DNA from: DASVDK01 sp036562265 [NCBI: Thermodesulfobacteriota bacterium]
GTDB taxonomy: Bacteria > DASVDK01
NCBI GenBank assembly: GCA_036562265.1
Contig: DATCKS010000587.1
Location: 1-8,830 of the forward strand
DNA: 8,830 nucleotides
Direction: 5' to 3'
Program-made: the position numbers and the translations under genes
The notes under the pieces: generated by a model
Told to the model about the DNA's origin: nothing
What the model saw: the letters and a program-made list of their open reading frames with translations, nothing else
Database searches by the model: none
Part shown: piece by piece, positions 871-8,752 of the stretch
Layout of the letters: every line of letters starts with the position of its first letter
How positions within the stretch are numbered: position 1 is the first letter of the stretch

Positions 871-2211
871 CTACATCGGCCCCCCCGCGGCCGTCGCCGC
901 GGTGAAGGCCTCGTCGAGGAGACGGAGCGCCTCGTCGATCTCGGACTCGGAGACGAGGAGGCTCGGGCCGATGCGCAGGACGTTGCGGTAGAGGCCGGCG
1001 CGGCCGACGAGGAGGCCGCGCCGCCGCGCCTCGTCCATGACGCGGGCGAGGAGCGCGGCGGCCGGCGCCTTCGCCGCGCCGCTCGCGGGGTCGATCAGCT
1101 CGAGCCCCTGCATGAGGCCGAGGCCTCGGACGTCGCCGATGACGGGATGCCTGGCCTTGAGCGCCTCGAGCCCCTCGCGAAGCCGCCGGCCGAGCCGTTC
1201 GGCGCGGCCGGGCCCGTCCTCGCGCTCGAGCACCCGGATGGTGGCGAGCGAGGCGGCGGCGCAGACGGGATTGCCGCCGAACGTGGAGAAGCCGGCCCCC
1301 TTCACCGCCGAGGCGACCGCCTCGGTCGCCATCGTGGCGCCGAGCGGCATGCCGCCCGCGATCCCCTTGGCCATGGCCATGAGGTCCGGCTCGACGCCGT
1401 AGTGCTCGATCGCGAACCACCGGCCGGTCCGGCCGATGCCGCTCTGCACCTCGTCGTCCACGAAGAGGCCGCCGTAGCGGCGCACGATCCCGACGGCCAC
1501 CTGGAAGTACTCCCTGGGGGGCGTCACGAAGCCGCCGGTCCCCTGCACCGGCTCGGCCACGAAGGCGGCGGGCTGGCCGCTGCCCGACGTCTGGATCACC
1601 GACTCGAGGTCCTTCGCGCAGCGCAAGTCGCACGACGGGTAGGTGAGGCCGAAGTCGCAGCGGTAGCAGTAGGGCGCGTGCCCGAACGCGACCCCGGGCA
1701 CCTGCGCCGGGACGCCGCGCCAGCCGGCCTGGCCGGTGAGCGCCTGCCCGAGGGCGCTCCTGCCGGAGTAGCCGTGTCGCAGCGCGACGACCTCCTGGCG
1801 GCCGGTGGCCGCCTTGGCGAGGAGGACCGCGGTGTCGACCGCCTCGCTCCCGCTGTTGGTGAAGAAGGTGCGGCAAAGGCCCCCCGGCGCGAGACGCGCG
1901 AGCGTCTCGGCGAGGTCGGCAGCCGGCTGGGTGGCGTACAGGGCGGAGGTGTGCACGAGCGTGCGCGCCTGCGCCGCCACCGCCTCGGCCACCTCCGGGT
2001 GCGCGTGGCCGACCGACGTGACGAGGATCCCGCCGAAGAAGTCGAGGTACTCGCGGCCGTCGGCGTCCCAGAGCCGGCTCCCCTCCCCGCGCACGGCGAC
2101 GAGCGGCTCGTCGTAGTAGTGACCCGCTCCCGGAAGGAAGTAGCGCCGCGCCTTCTCGCGGATCTCGGCCGACTGCGCGGACGTCGTGGAGGCTCGATCC
2201 CCGGTGCTCAT
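871..2211 (-). CDS. Class III PLP-dependent aminotransferase (AGXT2/GABA-aminotransferase-like)
   Basis: A 446-residue cytoplasmic PLP enzyme of normal family length. Visible hallmarks are the N-terminal G.G..L.D.DG.EYLDF segment (~42-60), the phosphate-binding NSGSEA (119-124), HGYSG (147-151), the PLP-ring aspartate in DDEVQSG (252-258), the Schiff-base lysine in MAKG (Lys282), and the FGGNPVC segment (311-317). The overall pattern fits alanine-glyoxylate aminotransferase 2-like and omega-aminotransferases, which swap amino groups between an amine or amino acid and a 2-oxoacid such as pyruvate or glyoxylate; the exact substrate is not readable. A cysteine-rich insert, C182-x2-C-x8-C-x3-C198, lies between the substrate and cofactor parts. 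The ATG start overlaps the alanine dehydrogenase stop as ATGA, which implies translational coupling. Alanine dehydrogenase next door suggests pyruvate/alanine is the amino acceptor pair (inference). Last gene of the minus-strand operon. The frame stays open upstream inside the next gene, but family homology begins at this ATG. Confidence 0.93.
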
Positions 2212-3335
2212 ACCTCGGTTCCCTCGAGCGCCCGCTCGACCGGCAGGTAGTCGAGCCCGAGGTCGCGCGCGACGGCGGCGTGCGTGCACTGCCCGAGCCA
2301 CACGTTGAGGCCGCGCGCCAGGGCCGGGTCCTCGCGCATCGCCTTCGCGTAGCCCCGGTCGGCGAGCTTGCGGATGTAGGGCAAGGTGGCGTTCGTGAGG
2401 GCGAACGTCGAGGTCCGTGCGACCGCGCCCGGCATGTTGGCCACGCAGTAGTGGACCACGCCGTCCACCTCGTACATCGGATCCGCGTGCGTGGTCGGCC
2501 GGGTGGTCTCCACGCATCCCCCCTGGTCGACGGCGACGTCGACGATGACCGCGCCGCGCTTCATGAGGCGGAGCATCTGCCGGGTGACGAGCCGCGGCGT
2601 CCTGGCGCCGACGACGAGCACGGCGCCGATCACGAGGTCGGCCTCGGCCAGCGCCGCCTCCACGCTGTAGCGGTTCGAGGCGACGGTCCTCACCCGTCCG
2701 CCGAAGAGGTTGTCGAGGTCGCGCAGGCGCTGGACGTTGACGTCGAGGATCGTCACGTCGGCGCCCATCCCGGCGGCCACCCTCGCCGCGTTCGACCCGA
2801 CGACGCCCCCCCCGAGGACGACGACCTTCGCCGGCTCGACGCCCGGCACGCCCGACAGGAGCACGCCGCGGCCGCCCGAGACGTTCTCGAGCGCCCTGGC
2901 GCCGGCCTGGATGCTCATGCGACCCGCCACCTCGCTCATCGGCGTGAGGAGCGGAAGCGAGCGGTCGGGGAGTTCGATCGTCTCGTAGGCGATGCCGATG
3001 ACCTTGCGGTCGAGGAGCGCGCGGGCGAGCCTCGGGTCGGGGGCGAGGTGGAGGTAGGCGAAGAGGAGTTGCCCCTCGCGCAGGAGCGGCCACTCCTCCG
3101 GCTGCGGCTCCTTCACCTTGACGACGAGATCGGCCTCGCCGAAGACGGCCGCCGCGTCGGGCGCGATCCGCGCCCCGGCCCGGGCGTAGTCGGCGTCGTC
3201 GATCCCGCTGCCCCGCCCCGCGCCGGCCTGCACGATCACGCGGTGGCCCGACTCGACGAGGGCGCGCACGCCGGACGGCACGAGCGCGACCCGGTACTCG
3301 TGGGGCTTCACCTCCGCGGGGACACCGATCAGCAC
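2208..3335 (-). CDS. ald: Alanine dehydrogenase
   Basis: A 375-residue NAD-dependent enzyme that interconverts L-alanine and pyruvate plus ammonia in the cytoplasm. It is close to full family length and matches from its first residues ([17 protein letters not shown]). The expected active-site residues can be placed: Arg15, Lys75 (VKVKEP), His96 (YLHLAPD) and Asp270 (VAVDQGG). The Rossmann loop GGGVVG is at 175-180 with the NAD-ribose-binding Asp at 198 (TILDVN), and the family stretch [12 protein letters not shown] lies at 129-140. The start is GTG (3333-3335), chosen because homology begins there and because it overlaps the upstream dehydratase stop by 7 nt. The downstream aminotransferase overlaps by 4 nt. 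In this context it more likely degrades alanine, regenerating pyruvate for the aminotransferase, than makes alanine (inference). There are no missing key residues. An 8-G run on the coding strand inside the Rossmann loop does not break the frame. Confidence 0.96.
2221..2225 (-). promoter_or_regulatory. Ribosome binding site of the aminotransferase
   Basis: GAGGG on the minus strand lies 9 nt before the ATG at 2211, inside the end of the alanine dehydrogenase gene. It supports this ATG, rather than any codon further upstream in the same open frame, as the true start. Confidence 0.55.
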
Positions 3336-5071
3336 CCGGTGAATCTAGCGCCCTGCTCCCCGTTCGACCAGGCTGCCCCGCCGTCCGCCCGGAGGAAGTC
3401 GAAGTCGCACCCCTGGTCGGCCTGGAGCACGTGCCGCGCGTAGAGCGCGGCGTAGCCGCGAGGCGGCGGAGGCGCGGGCGACCAGGACGCCCGCCGTCGC
3501 GCGAGCTCCGCCTCGGCCACGAGGAGGTCGAGCCGGCGCTCCCTCACCGAGAGGCGGATGCGGTCGCCGGTGCGCACGAAGGCAAGCGGGCCGCCGGCCG
3601 CGGCCTCGGGCGCGACGTGGAGGACGACCGTGCCGAACGCGGTGCCGCTCATGCGGGCGTCGGAGATGCGCAGCATGTCCCTGACGCCCGCGCGCGCGAG
3701 CTTCGCGGGGATCGGCAGGTACCCCGCCTCGGGCATCCCGGCGCCGAGCGGGCCGGCCCCCTTGAGGACCAGCGCGTCCTCGGGCGTCACGTCGAGGTCG
3801 GGGTCGTCGATCCGTCGAGCGAGGTCCTCGAGCCCGTCGAAGACGACGGCGCGCGCCTCGCGCTCGAAGAGCGCCTCGTCGGCGGCTGCCACCTTGAGGA
3901 TCGCCCCCCGGGGGGCGAGGCTGCCGAAGAGCGCCACGAGCGCGCCGGTCGGTCGGAACGGGTCGCTCGCCGGCCGGATCACCGTCCGGTCCACGAGGCC
4001 GTCCGGCCCGGCCACCCGTTCGGCGAGGGTCATCCCGGACACGCCGCGAGCACCCGGATGGAGGAGCGGCGCAAGCTCGCGCAGTACCGCCCCCACCCCG
4101 CCCGCCGCGTGGAAGTCCTCCATGTAGTGCCGCCCCACCGGCTTGAGGTCGACGAGGACCGGGGTCGTCTCCGACAGCTCGTTGAACCGCGCGAGGGAGA
4201 GTTCCACGCCGACCCGTCCCGCGAGCGCGGCCAGGTGCACGACCGCGTTCGTCGAGCCGCCTACGGCCAGGAGCACCCGGAACGCGTTCTCGAACGCCTC
4301 GGGCGTGAGGACGTCCCGCGGCGTCGGTCCACCCTCGACCGCCAGACGAGCCGCGAGGGCGCCGCTCGCCTCGGCGGCGCGGAGCCGATCGGCGTGCACC
4401 GCGGGGATGGCGGCCGTGCCGGGCAGCGCCATGCCGAGCGTTTCGGCGAGGACCGCCATGGTGCTCGCGGTCCCCATGACGGGGCAGGTCCCGGCGGTCG
4501 TGGCGAGGCTCCCCTCGACGACCTCGATCTCGGCCGCGGAGACCTCGCCGGCCCGATGGCGCGCCCAGAAGCGGCGGCAGTCGGTGCAGGCGCCGAGACG
4601 CTCCCCGCGATAGCGGCCGGTCATCATCGGGCCGACCACGAGCTGGACCGCCGGCAGGCCCGCGGAGGCCGCCCCCATGAGCTGCGCCGGGACCGTCTTG
4701 TCGCACCCGCCGACGAGGACCACCGCGTCCATCGGCTGGGCGCGGATCATCTCCTCGACGTCCATCGACATGAGGTTCCGGAAGACGAGGCTCGTGGGGG
4801 CGAGGAAGACCTCGCCCAGGGAGATGGTCGGGAACTCGAGCGGCAGCGCGCCGCCGGCCAGGACGCCGCGCTTGACCGCCTCGAGGAGTTCGGGCGTGGT
4901 GCGGTGGCAGGTGTTGAAGCCGGAGGGGGCGACGGCGATGCCGACGACCGGGCGGTCGAGCATGCCGCGCGAGTACCCCATCGAGCGGGCGAAGGAGCGG
5001 CGCAGGTAGCGCGCGAAGTCGGGGTCGCCGTAGCTCGTGAGGCCGCGGCCGAGGCCACGCGGAGCGCTCAT
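3329..5071 (-). CDS. IlvD/Edd family dehydratase, L-arabinonate-dehydratase-like
   Basis: A 580-residue Fe-S dehydratase that removes water from a 2,3-dihydroxy acid to give a 2-keto-3-deoxy acid. Cluster cysteines are visible at Cys55 (FNTCH), Cys123 (GGCDKT) and Cys196 (GTCPVMG), the three positions that ligate a [2Fe-2S] cluster in sugar-acid dehydratases. Lys125 is the probable Mg-site lysine and Ser475 in RISDARMSGTAFG is the expected catalytic base. From memory of the family, the C-terminal part (GYAALYARHV..AD.G.DFDFL) fits the L-arabinonate/sugar-acid dehydratases better than the valine/isoleucine enzyme IlvD, so a catabolic role on a sugar acid or similar polyhydroxy acid is likelier than amino-acid synthesis. 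Two extra cysteines, CTDC at 162-165, sit near the cluster region. The ATG at 5069-5071 is chosen because homology begins soon after it. No good Shine-Dalgarno is seen before it. The stop overlaps the ald GTG by 7 nt, so the two are translationally coupled. True substrate unknown. Confidence 0.9.
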   Translation of the reverse strand: MSAPRGLGRGLTSYGDPDFARYLRRSFARSMGYSRGMLDRPVVGIAVAPSGFNTCHRTTPELLEAVKRGVLAGGALPLEFPTISLGEVFLAPTSLVFRNLMSMDVEEMIRAQPMDAVVLVGGCDKTVPAQLMGAASAGLPAVQLVVGPMMTGRYRGERLGACTDCRRFWARHRAGEVSAAEIEVVEGSLATTAGTCPVMGTASTMAVLAETLGMALPGTAAIPAVHADRLRAAEASGALAARLAVEGGPTPRDVLTPEAFENAFRVLLAVGGSTNAVVHLAALAGRVGVELSLARFNELSETTPVLVDLKPVGRHYMEDFHAAGGVGAVLRELAPLLHPGARGVSGMTLAERVAGPDGLVDRTVIRPASDPFRPTGALVALFGSLAPRGAILKVAAADEALFEREARAVVFDGLEDLARRIDDPDLDVTPEDALVLKGAGPLGAGMPEAGYLPIPAKLARAGVRDMLRISDARMSGTAFGTVVLHVAPEAAAGGPLAFVRTGDRIRLSVRERRLDLLVAEAELARRRASWSPAPPPPRGYAALYARHVLQADQGCDFDFLRADGGAAWSNGEQGARFTGC

Positions 5072-5162: not shown

Positions 5163-6707
5163 TCAGCTCTGCGCGGCTGCGCGGGCGGCGCGGCGGCGGC
5201 GCAACCAGCGGGCGCGCACGCGCACCGGCCGGGTCACGCGCCGGAAGACCTTGCCGATGCCGGCGGTGAACCGCTCGACCGGGCTCTGCACCGCGAAGCG
5301 ATAGCGGTAGCCGTCGCGGGAGAGCACCACGCGGGCGCCGACGGAGAGCCGCTCGCTCGACTCGCCGCGAGCGAGGACGCGGCGGCGGTCGGCGGTCTGG
5401 ACGAGACCGAGCACGAGCGGCGAGGGGAACCCCTCGGGCGGCACGTGGAGCACGGTGTAGCTCAACAGGCGTCCGGCCGTGAGGGTGGTCGGCTCGCCCC
5501 GGACGACCGGGTCCTCCTCGAGGACCACCGGCTGCGCCGGCACGGGGTGGACCGTTCCGCGCTCGGCGCGGTCCAGGATGGCGACGAGGTTGTTGTTGGC
5601 CAGCCCGCCGATGCTCTGGACGAGGGCGATGGCCGGAGAGGCCAGTTGCCGGCCGGGGCCCGCGTCGCCGCGGAGTTGCCAGACCGCCTCGACGACCTGT
5701 GCCAGGCCGGAGGCGCCCACCGGGTGCCCCCGGGCCTTTAGCCCGCCCGACGGGTTGATCGGCAGCCGGCCGTTGAGCCCGGTCGTGCCGTCGAGGACGG
5801 CGCGCCCCCCCTGGCCTTCGGCGAAGAAGCCGAGGTCCTCGGTGCCGATGACCTCGAAGGGGGTGAAGGCGTCGTGGACCTCGGCGAAGCTCACGTCCTT
5901 CGGGCCGATGCCGGCCATGGCGTAGGCCTGGGCGGCCGCGAGCCGGGTCGACCGGAACCCGGTGAGGCTGCCGCGGTAGCGGAGCGCGACCGTGTCGGTC
6001 GCATGCCCGAGGCCGATCACCCGGACGCCCCCCTTGCCCGGCTCGGCGCTCACGACCACCGCCACCGCGCCGTCGGTGATCGGGGCGCAGTCGTAGAGCC
6101 CGAGCGGCGTCGCGATGGGCCGCGCGGTCCGGTACGTCTCCTCGGTGATCGGCTTGCGGAACTGCGCGTAGGGGTTGAGCGCGCCGTTCGCGTGGTTCTT
6201 GATGGCGACCGCCGCGAGGATGCGCGTCATCGCCTCCTCGGACAGGCGGTGCCGCGCCATGTAGCAGCGCGTGACGAGCGCGGCCAGGGCCGGCATGCTC
6301 GCCCCGGCGTTCCGCTCGTCGTGGTCGATCACCTCCGCGAGGATGGCCGTCGTCCGGGCGGTGGGGAGATGGGTCATCTTCTCGGCCGCCACGACGAGCA
6401 CGCGCCGCGCGTGTCCGGAGCCGACCGCCAGGCACGCCTGGTGGAAGGCGGTCGCCCCCGTCGAGGAGGCGGTCTCGACGCGGACCGCCGAGGCGCCGGT
6501 GAGGCCGAGGGCGTCGGTGACGACGACGGCGAGGTTCCCCTCCCCGACGAACTCCTCCGGGTTCATGACGCCGACGTAGACCGCGTCGACGGCATCGACG
6601 CCGGCATCCCTGAGAGCCGCTCGCCCGGCATCCGTGGTGAGGTTGATCAGGGAGCGGGTGGTCTTGCCGAAGGGGGTCATCCCGACGCCGCTGATGTAGA
6701 TCGCCAT
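5163..6707 (-). CDS. Thiolase-like protein fused to a DUF35-type OB-fold domain
   Basis: A 514-residue two-domain protein. Residues 1-~380 are a thiolase fold of the SCP-x/archaeal acetoacetyl-CoA thiolase type. It begins with MAIYISGVGMTPFG and carries the motifs VHDAF (His279) and NPSGGLKARGHPVGASG (His328). Residues ~410-475 match the DUF35 OB-fold (GRLLSYTVLHVPPEGFPSP, then L..G.RVVLS), which in archaea and in steroid degradation is normally a separate partner of such thiolases. The zinc-ribbon half of DUF35 is absent, with no CxxC pair. The nucleophilic Cys of thiolases (ACASG in relatives) is Ser81 here (ASSTG), and the late catalytic Cys region reads SIGGLANNN. Claisen condensation/thiolysis by the normal route is therefore doubtful, and a retro-aldol or other CoA-ester C-C reaction is possible. 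The tail 489-512 is very Arg-rich. The ATG at 6707 is preferred because homology starts there; an in-frame ATG at 6752 would add 15 unconserved residues. First gene of the operon. Confidence 0.85.
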   Translation of the reverse strand: MAIYISGVGMTPFGKTTRSLINLTTDAGRAALRDAGVDAVDAVYVGVMNPEEFVGEGNLAVVVTDALGLTGASAVRVETASSTGATAFHQACLAVGSGHARRVLVVAAEKMTHLPTARTTAILAEVIDHDERNAGASMPALAALVTRCYMARHRLSEEAMTRILAAVAIKNHANGALNPYAQFRKPITEETYRTARPIATPLGLYDCAPITDGAVAVVVSAEPGKGGVRVIGLGHATDTVALRYRGSLTGFRSTRLAAAQAYAMAGIGPKDVSFAEVHDAFTPFEVIGTEDLGFFAEGQGGRAVLDGTTGLNGRLPINPSGGLKARGHPVGASGLAQVVEAVWQLRGDAGPGRQLASPAIALVQSIGGLANNNLVAILDRAERGTVHPVPAQPVVLEEDPVVRGEPTTLTAGRLLSYTVLHVPPEGFPSPLVLGLVQTADRRRVLARGESSERLSVGARVVLSRDGYRYRFAVQSPVERFTAGIGKVFRRVTRPVRVRARWLRRRRAARAAAQS

Positions 6708-6935: not shown

Positions 6936-7706
6936 ATGGCGTTAGAGGAGACGCTTGCCCGGCTCGGGATCGAGGGGCGCCGGGCGCGCTTCTACCTGGC
7001 GGCGCTCGAGCTGGGAGAGGCGCCGATCGCGGCGGTGGCGCAGAAGGCGGGGGTCAGCCGCACGACGGCCTACGACCTCCTGGCCCGCCTGCTGCGCGAC
7101 GGGCTCGTGACCCGGGTCGAGAAGTCGGGGCGGCTGCACGTCCTGGCCGAGGACCCGGCCGCGCTCCTGCGCCGCCTCGACGAGCGGCGCGAGCTGCTCA
7201 CGGCCGCGCTCCCCGAGCTGCGATCGATCTACAACCGCTCCGCCGTCAAGCCTCGCATCCACTTCTACGAGGGGGTCGAGGGGATCCGGACCGTCCTGCT
7301 CGACCGCCTCCAGTGCCGCAGCCGGCGGCTGCGCGGCATCCTCTCCATGCAGGACCTCCTCGAGGTGCCGGGCCGCCGCGAGATGGACCGGCTCATCGCG
7401 CTGCGCATCGAGGCGGGCATCCACCTCCAGGCGATCCGCTCGCGCGCCAAGGAGGTCGACCACATCTGGCCCTCGAGCGCCGCCGACCTGCGCGAGCTGC
7501 GCTACGCGCCCGAGGGGCTCGTCTTCGCCATGACGACGTACATCTACGACCACAAGGTCTCGTTCATCTCCACGCGGCGGGAGAGCTTCGGGATGATCGT
7601 CGAGAGCGAGGAGTTCGCGGCGCTCCAGGAGAACTACTTCGAGGTCCTCTGGCGGGTATCGGAGCCGGCCCCCGTGTTCGACGGCGAGCCGGCGGAGGCC
7701 CGGTGA
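6936..7706 (+). CDS. TrmB-family transcriptional regulator
   Basis: A 256-residue DNA-binding protein. Residues ~5-70 form a winged helix-turn-helix of the TrmB type: the first helices FYLAALELGEAPIAAVA, a recognition helix around SRTTAYDLLARLL (41-53), and a wing near VEKSGRLHVL. A charged helix (~75-100) probably serves as a linker or dimer coil. The C-terminal part opens with the FYEGVEGIRTVL stretch (110-121), typical of TrmB-like sensor domains, and contains no known enzyme motif. TrmB proteins were first described in archaea as sugar-responsive repressors or activators, and bacterial members are common but mostly uncharacterised. The gene is divergent from the catabolic operon and lies 47 nt before a peptide-type ABC transporter gene on the same strand, so it is well placed to control both (inference). 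The effector is unknown. Confidence 0.85.
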   Translation: MALEETLARLGIEGRRARFYLAALELGEAPIAAVAQKAGVSRTTAYDLLARLLRDGLVTRVEKSGRLHVLAEDPAALLRRLDERRELLTAALPELRSIYNRSAVKPRIHFYEGVEGIRTVLLDRLQCRSRRLRGILSMQDLLEVPGRREMDRLIALRIEAGIHLQAIRSRAKEVDHIWPSSAADLRELRYAPEGLVFAMTTYIYDHKVSFISTRRESFGMIVESEEFAALQENYFEVLWRVSEPAPVFDGEPAEAR

Positions 7707-7753: not shown

Positions 7754-8752
7754 ATGACGATGCCGCCGCTCCTCGACGTGCGCAACCTCGAGACCAGCTT
7801 CAGGACGTCCCACGGCCTGGTGAAGGCGGTCGACGGGGTGAGCTTCGACATCCAGCCGGGCGAGACCCTCGCCCTCGTCGGTGAGTCGGGGTGCGGCAAG
7901 TCGGTCACCGCGCTGTCGATCATGCGCCTGGTGCCGAACCCGCCGGGCCGCATCACGGGCGGTGAGGTGCTCTTCGACGGTCGCGACCTCCTCACCCTCT
8001 CCGACCGGGAGATGCGCCGTGTCCGCGGCAAGGACATCGGCATGATCTTCCAGGAGCCGATGACGTCGCTGAACCCCGTGCTCACGATCGGGCTGCAGCT
8101 CACCGAGACGATGGAGCACCACCTCGGGCTTACGCCGGCCGCCGCCAGGGCCCGCGCCGTCGAGCTCCTCGGCCTGGTCGGCATCCCCGAGCCCGAGCGG
8201 CGCCTGTCGCAGCACCCGCATCAGTTCTCGGGCGGCATGCGGCAGCGGGTCATGATCGCCATCGCGCTCTCCTGCCGGCCCCGTCTCGTCCTGGCCGACG
8301 AGCCGACGACCGCCCTGGACGTGACGATCCAGGCCCAGATCCTCGAGCTGCTCAAGAAGCTCTCGCAGGAGTTCGGCGTCGCCATGGTGATCATCACGCA
8401 CAACCTCGGCGTCGTCGCCCGCTACGCCGACCGGGTGAACGTGATGTACGCGGGGCGCGTGGTCGAGCGCGGGCCCGCGGCCGAGATCTACGACCGCCCG
8501 CTGCACCCCTACACGCTGGGGCTCCTCCGCTCCGTGCCGCGGCTCGACCGGCCGCGCCGCCAGCGACTCGACCCCATCCCGGGGCAGCCGCCGGACCTCG
8601 CGCGGCTGCCGGCCGGCTGCAGCTTCCGCCCGCGATGCCGCTTCGCCGTGGAGCGTTGCGAGCGCGAGACCCCGCCCCTCCTGCCGCAGGCCGGCGGGCG
8701 CCTGTCCGCCTGCTGGAAGGCGGCCGAGCTTCCGGCGCCGGAGGCCGCATGA
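7754..8752 (+). CDS. Dipeptide/oligopeptide ABC transporter ATP-binding protein (DppD/OppD-like)
   Basis: A 332-residue cytoplasmic ATPase of an Opp/Dpp/nickel-type importer. All ABC motifs are present: Walker A GESGCGKS (43-50), Q-loop Gln100 in [11 protein letters not shown], signature FSGGM (158-162), Walker B LVLADEP (178-184), D-loop ALD, and the switch His216 (ITHN). The C-terminal oligo-peptide domain follows ([12 protein letters not shown], ~251-262). It has four cysteines, C289, C295, C302 and C320, in the pattern [14 protein letters not shown]. This pattern is normal for OppD/DppD and has been linked to an Fe-S cluster in a mycobacterial homologue. Family members import peptides but also nickel, opines, amino-sugars or other solutes, so the substrate is open. 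The start at 7754 is uncertain: the ATG at 7760 (two codons later) has GAAG at 6-nt spacing. The stop overlaps the next ATPase as ATGA. Binding protein and permeases are not in the window. Confidence 0.93.

Follow-up and report, generated by a model that had tools for sequence, protein, structure and literature searches.

Serine or threonine in place of the nucleophilic cysteine in a clade of thiolase-like proteins

What can a thiolase fold do once the thiols of the thiolase reaction are gone? The question is raised by a gene in the stretch of DNA analysed here (8,830 nucleotides, that is, all of positions 1 to 8,830 of contig DATCKS010000587.1 from a Thermodesulfobacteriota bacterium; hereafter, the window), the product of which lacks both of these thiols even though annotation is likely to name such proteins acetyl-CoA acetyltransferase or thiolase (judging from the names of the NCBIfam models that it matches below threshold). 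On the basis of alignments and a tree, the window protein falls in a separate clade of thiolase-like proteins that lack the thiols, and we think it probable, leaving the detailed mechanism aside, that it is an active CoA-ester enzyme that uses no thiol and is not a thiolase; the thiolase label is probably wrong for the Ser/Thr family as a whole. The conserved natural pair of replacements (Cys to Ser and Cys to Ala) allows the thiol-free thiolase fold to be tested directly, and the crystal structure of one relative that has Ser on the same column is already available (4yzo).

A thiolase fold with a fused OB domain

By fold, the window protein belongs to the SCP2/archaeal thiolases, as indicated by its Pfam domains (Thiolase_N, 66.6 bits; Thiolase_C_1, 152.1 bits; and OB_ChsH2_C) and by a structural match with a Z score of 59.8; its AlphaFold2 model has a mean pLDDT of 92.4 and a pTM of 0.90. 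It matched 24 NCBIfam thiolase families (E up to 0.001), none above the curated cut-off, the best model being PRK06064 (365.6 against a cut-off of 420). The layout of thiolase followed by OB domain (Table 1) recurs in relatives of the window protein. No Cys occurs after residue 380, so the OB domain of the window protein has no zinc-binding cysteines of the zinc ribbon kind. Across the family, the DUF35-type OB domain is either fused or, in a lineage with Thr at position 81, encoded by an adjacent separate gene. One Thr-type protein (L121/L215, genome G072; L numbers denote loci and G numbers genomes) carries its own fused OB domain in a lineage whose loci, as read here, otherwise have DUF35 as a separate gene, which is perhaps a second fusion event.

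On the same strand, the dehydratase gene starts 91 bases past the thiolase-like gene, and the genes for the dehydratase, alanine dehydrogenase and class III aminotransferase (871–5071) are tightly packed 3′ of it; this set suggests amino-group removal with pyruvate recycling. The C-terminal part of an FtsX/MacB-type ABC permease, with no obvious relation to the thiolase-like gene, occupies positions 1–771.

Table 1. Genes and motifs of the window (residues numbered from the ATG at 6707)
Feature	Position	Strand	Remarks
Thiolase-like protein with fused C-terminal OB (DUF35/ChsH2-C) domain	5163..6707	minus	514 aa + stop
ETASSTG, residues 78–84	6456..6476	minus	reads GAGACCGCCTCCTCGACGGGG
Ser81, codon TCC	6465–6467	minus	at the acyl-acceptor Cys column
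HDAF, residues 278–281	5865..5876	minus	His278 kept; Ala280 instead of the HDCF cysteine
GHP, residues 327–329	5721..5729	minus	His328 kept
SIGG, residues 365–368	5604..5615	minus	Ser365 where classical thiolases have the CxG cysteine
OB domain core, residues 412–461	5325..5474	minus	PF01796, 31.0 bits (cut-off 27.1)
IlvD/EDD-family dehydratase	3329..5071	minus	next gene downstream; NCBIfam above cut-off only for the PRK06131 subfamily
Alanine dehydrogenase	2208..3335	minus	TIGR00518, above cut-off; overlaps dehydratase by 7 bases
Class III aminotransferase, 446 aa	871..2211	minus	its ATG overlaps the alanine dehydrogenase stop
TrmB-like transcription regulator	6936..7706	plus	divergent
OppD-type ABC transporter ATPase	7754..8752	plus	points away from the thiolase-like gene

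Serine on the nucleophile column

The original prediction, made from the window sequence, placed Ser81 at the acyl-accepting cysteine and proposed alignment with SCP-x, archaeal thiolase and Ltp2 families as the check. HMMER sets S81 without gaps on the Cys of the archaeal thiolases 7yvy and 6esq and of zebrafish SCP2-thiolase (6hsj/6hrv), which bears the placement out, and a helix spanning residues 83–97 in the AlphaFold2 model puts residue 81 at the nucleophile's usual elbow. We compared this column in the fused group of 53 proteins (the window protein with L001–L051 and L071, that is, the window and 52 of 80 loci, grouped by locus number), the OB core being covered in 50 of them (L016, L039 and L051 are cut). 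Homologues from the cultured Desulfocarbo indianensis (L028) and Dethiosulfatarculus sandiegensis (L041) are among these loci. Column 81 is gapped in L051 and holds Ser in all of the other 52 proteins, every one that can be read there, with identities to the window protein that reach down to 39%. A sequencing error was considered and rejected: the codon TCC is one step from the Cys codon TGC, yet the homologues share Ser, and Ser81 is therefore no sequencing accident. A catalytic thiolase (EC 2.3.1.9/2.3.1.16) requires an acyl-accepting Cys; the window protein has Ser81 in that place.

Remodelling of the other catalytic columns

The catalytic histidines that a thiolase requires at HDxF and GHP are both present, and HDAF and GHP are found in 53 of 53 fused-group proteins; the histidine of HDAF is residue 278 rather than 279 as first numbered, and His328 had been numbered and described correctly. 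The second catalytic Cys, which lies in the HDCF loop (or in CxG in the classical type), is replaced by Ala280 and Ser365. The original prediction had sought this cysteine near the C terminus, at the column that we take to be that of the classical CxG motif; it is indeed absent there, but Cys-type relatives mostly lack it too, and the relevant cysteine is instead that of HDCF, which is also found in zebrafish SCP2-thiolase. In column weights computed from 91 Ser/Thr rows and 84 Cys rows, column 280 is Cys for 76% of the weight in Cys-type relatives against Ala for 100% in the Ser/Thr clade, and column 365 is Asn for 82% against Ser for 95%. With no thiol on the nucleophile column and both histidines kept, the standard thiolase route is unlikely, as had been anticipated.

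An ordinary thiolase that works through another cysteine (Cys207 or Cys92) is very improbable. The point in its favour is that Cys207 is present in all 53 fused-group proteins, but the 18 Cys-type relatives in the same alignment, which have a normal nucleophile, all share this residue too, and it is thus no stand-in. Cys92 is Cys in 10 of the 53 and Cys148 in one, and five homologues (L001, L003, L004, L006 and L030, together with L039, the sequence of which is cut) contain a single Cys overall; the substitute thiol at Cys92 or elsewhere that would have spoken against the original prediction was thus looked for and did not appear.

Five columns separate the Ser/Thr clade from the Cys-type proteins (142, Y/F to A; 284, A to F; 326, K to R; 365, N to S; and 280, C to A), and three of these (142, 284 and 365) are near-uniform in the clade, at 100, 100 and 95% of weight. 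This remodelling, judged from the alignment, looks like a new and retained function rather than decay. We weigh at this point the improbable alternative of a pseudoenzyme (that is, a thiolase-fold scaffold or CoA-binding partner of another enzyme in which the site is kept for structure), which would agree with the loss of both thiols and with the further losses in a few members (His278 to Asp in L144 and Pro81 in L149). Against this alternative stand the near-uniform columns, the retention of His278 (99% of weight) and His328 (100%) in the clade, and the results from 18 searched genomes: in 3 the best copy is the sole match, in 13 the runner-up trails it by at least 178 bits, and in the two archaeal genomes (G014 and G015) its lead is 89 and 17 bits. 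In L144, which has the fused layout, the nucleophile motif is SPTG and the histidine motif DDAF, and this protein is perhaps a degenerate copy; together with Pro81 of L149, its lack of His278 means that the conserved set is not universal.

States, lineages and phylogeny

Among 186 distinct sequences of the wider family, the combinations of nucleophile residue and histidine motif were Ser/HDA in 63, Thr/HDA in 30, Cys/HDC in 70, Cys/HDA in 7, Cys/HDS in 5, Cys/HDN in 2 and others in 9, two of the latter (L188 and L199) being poor hits; these sequences were drawn by similarity to the window family, and the counts are therefore not frequencies in nature. HDC occurred in none of the Ser or Thr rows of this set. 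Thr at position 81 characterizes a lineage that includes a Candidatus Rokubacteria genome (that of L054), the phylum of which is presumably Methylomirabilota. When 95 genomes of that phylum were searched, 55 had a match above 420 bits, the next matches reaching at most 379 bits. Position 81 was read in part of these 55 genomes (30 loci plus L227 and L053): among the best 30 of the 55 matches, read as loci, Thr was found in 29 and Ser in L113, and among L209–L228 with L052–L054 Thr was found in 22 of 23 and Ser in L211. In the phylum of a Desulfocarbo genome, 12 of 198 sampled genomes had a match (E up to 1e-120), each over approximately 480–500 aligned positions.

A phylogeny of the Ser-type forms, which the original prediction had called for, was inferred from 183 of the 186 sequences (two poor hits, L188 and L199, and one gap row were removed), thinned to 74 representatives at 72% identity; the trait columns were removed before this quick tree was built, and five rows were of unusual composition. 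It places 26 rows (20 with Ser, 5 with Thr and 1 with Pro) on one starred branch (SH-aLRT 96), within which the five Thr rows form one branch (support 92, not starred); Halovenus L075 joins the 26-row clade at 93 (not starred), and the archaeal Ser-type pair L068 and L073 lies elsewhere on the tree with a support of 99. A single clade of all 28 Ser and Thr rows was rejected (p-AU 5.4e-5), which implies two or more changes of state. The simplest reading is that the thiol-free state arose twice from Cys; counts of changes on the tree do not tell gain from loss. In most draws, the two cysteines changed together in three starred independent contrasts, too few for significance (sign test p 0.25).

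Ser codons of both kinds, TCN and AGY, occur in the clade (AGY in L022, L030, L031, L036, L041, L055, L058, L113 and L148); as these are not interconvertible in one step, the hydroxyl looks to have been kept by selection. L149, the Pro row, lies within the clade, and column 81 outside it holds Asp in L177, Asn in L067 and Ala in L105. Archaeal L063, L068 and L073 have Ser on the nucleophile column (L063 is absent from the tree after thinning), and a DUF35-type gene adjoins L068. Overall, a thiol-free thiolase-like family is well supported by sequence.

Genomic context

Genes at the loci were called with a codon-model caller, and for the neighbour counts L063, L067, L068, L073 and L075 were set aside as 'other' and the gap row L051 was counted as Ser/Thr. 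An OppD/F-type ATPase lies nearby at 30 of 79 Ser/Thr loci against 1 of 17 Cys loci, a comparison in which many of the 30 come from one phylum and which is uncorrected for kinship or cut contigs; for Ser loci alone the count is 13 of 57. CaiB CoA-transferases were not significantly enriched (18 of 79 Ser/Thr loci against 2 of 17 Cys loci, p 0.51), and the link to CoA-transferases therefore rests on operon layout. A place in the mevalonate complex was considered and rejected, as a HMG-CoA-synthase-like cluster gene was found near 0 of 79 Ser/Thr loci (for the window, among its six other genes only) against 8 of 17 Cys loci; the representative of this cluster in L057 matches only ACP_syn_III_C.

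The operon layout was read at 22 Thr loci of the phylum of L054, where labels come from scanned representatives and OppB and OppC were assigned by cluster and position. Of these loci, 17 have an OppD/F-type ATPase, 18 OppA, OppB and OppC, and 19 the ferredoxin FdxA; at 21 there is either an OB/DUF35 gene or a long thiolase that carries the OB domain itself, and at 17 a family III CoA-transferase, eight genes being the furthest distance counted. OppABC, FdxA, DUF35 and the CoA-transferase all occur together at 14, and several others are cut by contig ends. L054 itself has an SBP_bac_5 protein gene in the neighbourhood (L054:3321-4934). At L040, which is among the nearest by identity, the thiolase is immediately preceded by OppB, OppC and two OppD/F-type ATPases, with an OppA-like gene ahead of them, and at L211 (Ser) two CoA-transferase (PF01144) subunits precede the thiolase, followed by a DUF35-cluster gene, an M20 hydrolase and an HpaB-type enzyme. 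At other loci the thiolase-like gene stands beside GntR-FCD regulators and OppD/F. These recurrent neighbours, Opp-type importers and at some loci CoA-transferases, suggest that an acid taken up by the cell is broken down.

Two further observations concern individual loci. A sensor kinase and a sigma-54 response regulator lie among the Opp genes of one Thr-type operon (L214:858-3558), nearest to AtoS/AtoC, both below curated cut-offs. At L013, L015, L021 and L044, the Ser-type gene is flanked on one side by dnaX/recR-like genes and on the other by a plsX-fabH-fabK-fabD-fabG-like cluster; two L021 genes (an ACP-synthase-III type gene near the thiolase-like gene and one of NMO type) were scanned, and the rest of the cluster was assigned by eye from L021 protein starts and from shared clusters.

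Proposed reaction

We suggest that the window protein would carry out a CoA-ester reaction without a Cys thioester and without ordinary thiolysis. As to how, we tentatively favour, with confidence somewhat short of even, a non-covalent enolate mechanism in which His278 and His328 would form or stabilise the enolate of a CoA thioester for use in C–C cleavage, condensation or decarboxylation, and in which the hydroxyl of Ser/Thr81, at the N terminus of a helix, would form a hydrogen bond to the other carbonyl or hydroxyl and stay un-acylated. Judging from the neighbouring genes, this may be a catabolic step on an acid that an Opp-type importer brings in and a CoA-transferase activates. Our confidence in an active thiol-free enzyme and our confidence in the individual mechanisms overlap. 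A search of the open-access PMC literature returned no report of activity for any member of the clade and no description of a natural Ser-type SCP2/archaeal thiolase.

The closest rival to the non-covalent enolate mechanism is a covalent one, possible but on the unlikely side, in which Ser81 or Thr81 would itself be the nucleophile and form an oxygen ester from the CoA ester, with His278/His328 and the dipole of the helix to activate it; water, an amine, an alcohol or some carbon nucleophile would then receive the acyl group. A Ser-based acyl enzyme had been among the options of the original prediction. The retention of a hydroxyl (Ser or Thr) in nearly the entire clade speaks for such an ester, and a natural precedent is found in DpsC, which self-acylates and has Ser118 at this place (PMC12664062). 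By contrast, a covalent catalyst would not usually have a secondary alcohol throughout a lineage (Thr) or Pro, as in L149, and the C88S variant of PhlC, a DUF35-dependent relative, is reported to be inactive with an almost unchanged structure (PMC12955522, PMC6392133), so that oxygen, on that account, is no drop-in for sulphur in PhlC. Three points place non-covalent enolate chemistry slightly ahead: the lineage with Thr, Pro in L149 and the inactivity of the PhlC variant.

The most far-reaching form of the covalent reading is one that we regard as doubtful: that the acyl group is truly accepted by Ser, or in one lineage by Thr, as the nucleophile of a new CoA-dependent C–C reaction that degrades Opp-imported acids in several bacterial phyla and in archaea. 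If this were true, the thiolase superfamily would, to our knowledge, gain its first Thr nucleophile.

Comparison with known systems

The closest fold is that of the archaeal acetoacetyl-CoA thiolase of the thiolase/DUF35/HMG-CoA synthase complex (6esq/6et9; Z 59.8, 376 aligned residues, rmsd 1.4 and 36% identity), which, like the window protein, has His at the HDxF and GHP columns and a DUF35 partner. It differs in having a Cys nucleophile and HDCF where the window protein has Ser81 and HDAF, and the OB domain of the window protein is fused and free of zinc cysteines, unlike the partner in the complex. PFC_04095 of Pyrococcus furiosus (7yvy; Z 55.9) has the highest identity among the solved structures listed (44%) and shares HDAF without a loop Cys and Arg at column 326, but keeps the nucleophile Cys; on these residues, 7yvy may resemble the step that preceded loss of that Cys. 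The 'thiolase-like protein' ST0096 of Sulfolobus tokodaii (4yzo; Z 53.5) has, as the window protein does and in alignments read by eye, Ser at the nucleophile column, Ala at column 142 and Ser at 365; it differs in having HDM for HDA and no fused OB domain. Among the papers listed for it, PMC6392133 alone names ST0096, as a structural match to PhlC; PhlC structures match the window protein with Z scores of 53.8–54.2.

The original prediction had offered Ltp2–ChsH2 as a precedent for altered chemistry. A retro-aldolase of the Ltp2/Sal type would fit the shared thiolase fold (Ltp2, 6ok1, Z 47.9; Sal, 9myr, Z 47.6), the DUF35-type domain and the missing Cys nucleophile, but we consider this even less probable than a pseudoenzyme, and the residues do not support Ltp2–ChsH2 as a mechanistic model. 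According to the report on Sal (PMC12329534), Ltp2 uses Tyr294 of YDHF as its base and Tyr344 as second acid, and Sal has catalytic Tyr302 and Cys304 in YDCY and Gly at the nucleophile column; its loop Cys is the proton donor, and the Ala, Ser and His variants are dead. On that description, the window protein has His278 for the required catalytic Tyr, Ala280 for Cys304 (by motif position) and Ser81 for the Gly of Sal, so that, residue by residue, a retro-aldolase of this kind was rejected, as both the catalytic Tyr and the Cys of the motif are absent; what the window protein does share with Sal is the absence of the nucleophile Cys. As the loop-Cys variants of Sal are described there as dead, an enolate-protonating cleavage by the window protein would have to use another acid. 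Both enzymes are also more distant in structure than the Cys-type archaeal thiolases (59.8 for 6esq and 55.9 for 7yvy), and their DUF35 domain is carried by a hydratase partner, whereas that of the window protein is fused.

DpsC, a thiolase-fold priming ketosynthase, likewise has a natural Ser at the nucleophile position, within a Ser118–His297–Asp302 triad (PMC12664062). It belongs to the ketosynthase III branch and works with an acyl carrier protein, in which, as in its Ser-His-Asp triad, it differs from the window protein.

A final parallel comes from engineering. In trypanosomatid SCP2-thiolases, the mutants C123S (3zbl) and C337A (4bia) were made separately, according to the structure titles, and HDAF is seen in 4bia; C123 is presumably the nucleophile. 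The natural exchange of the nucleophile Cys for Ser together with that of the HDCF Cys for Ala resembles these two mutants, and in the proteins described here the pair is conserved across phyla.
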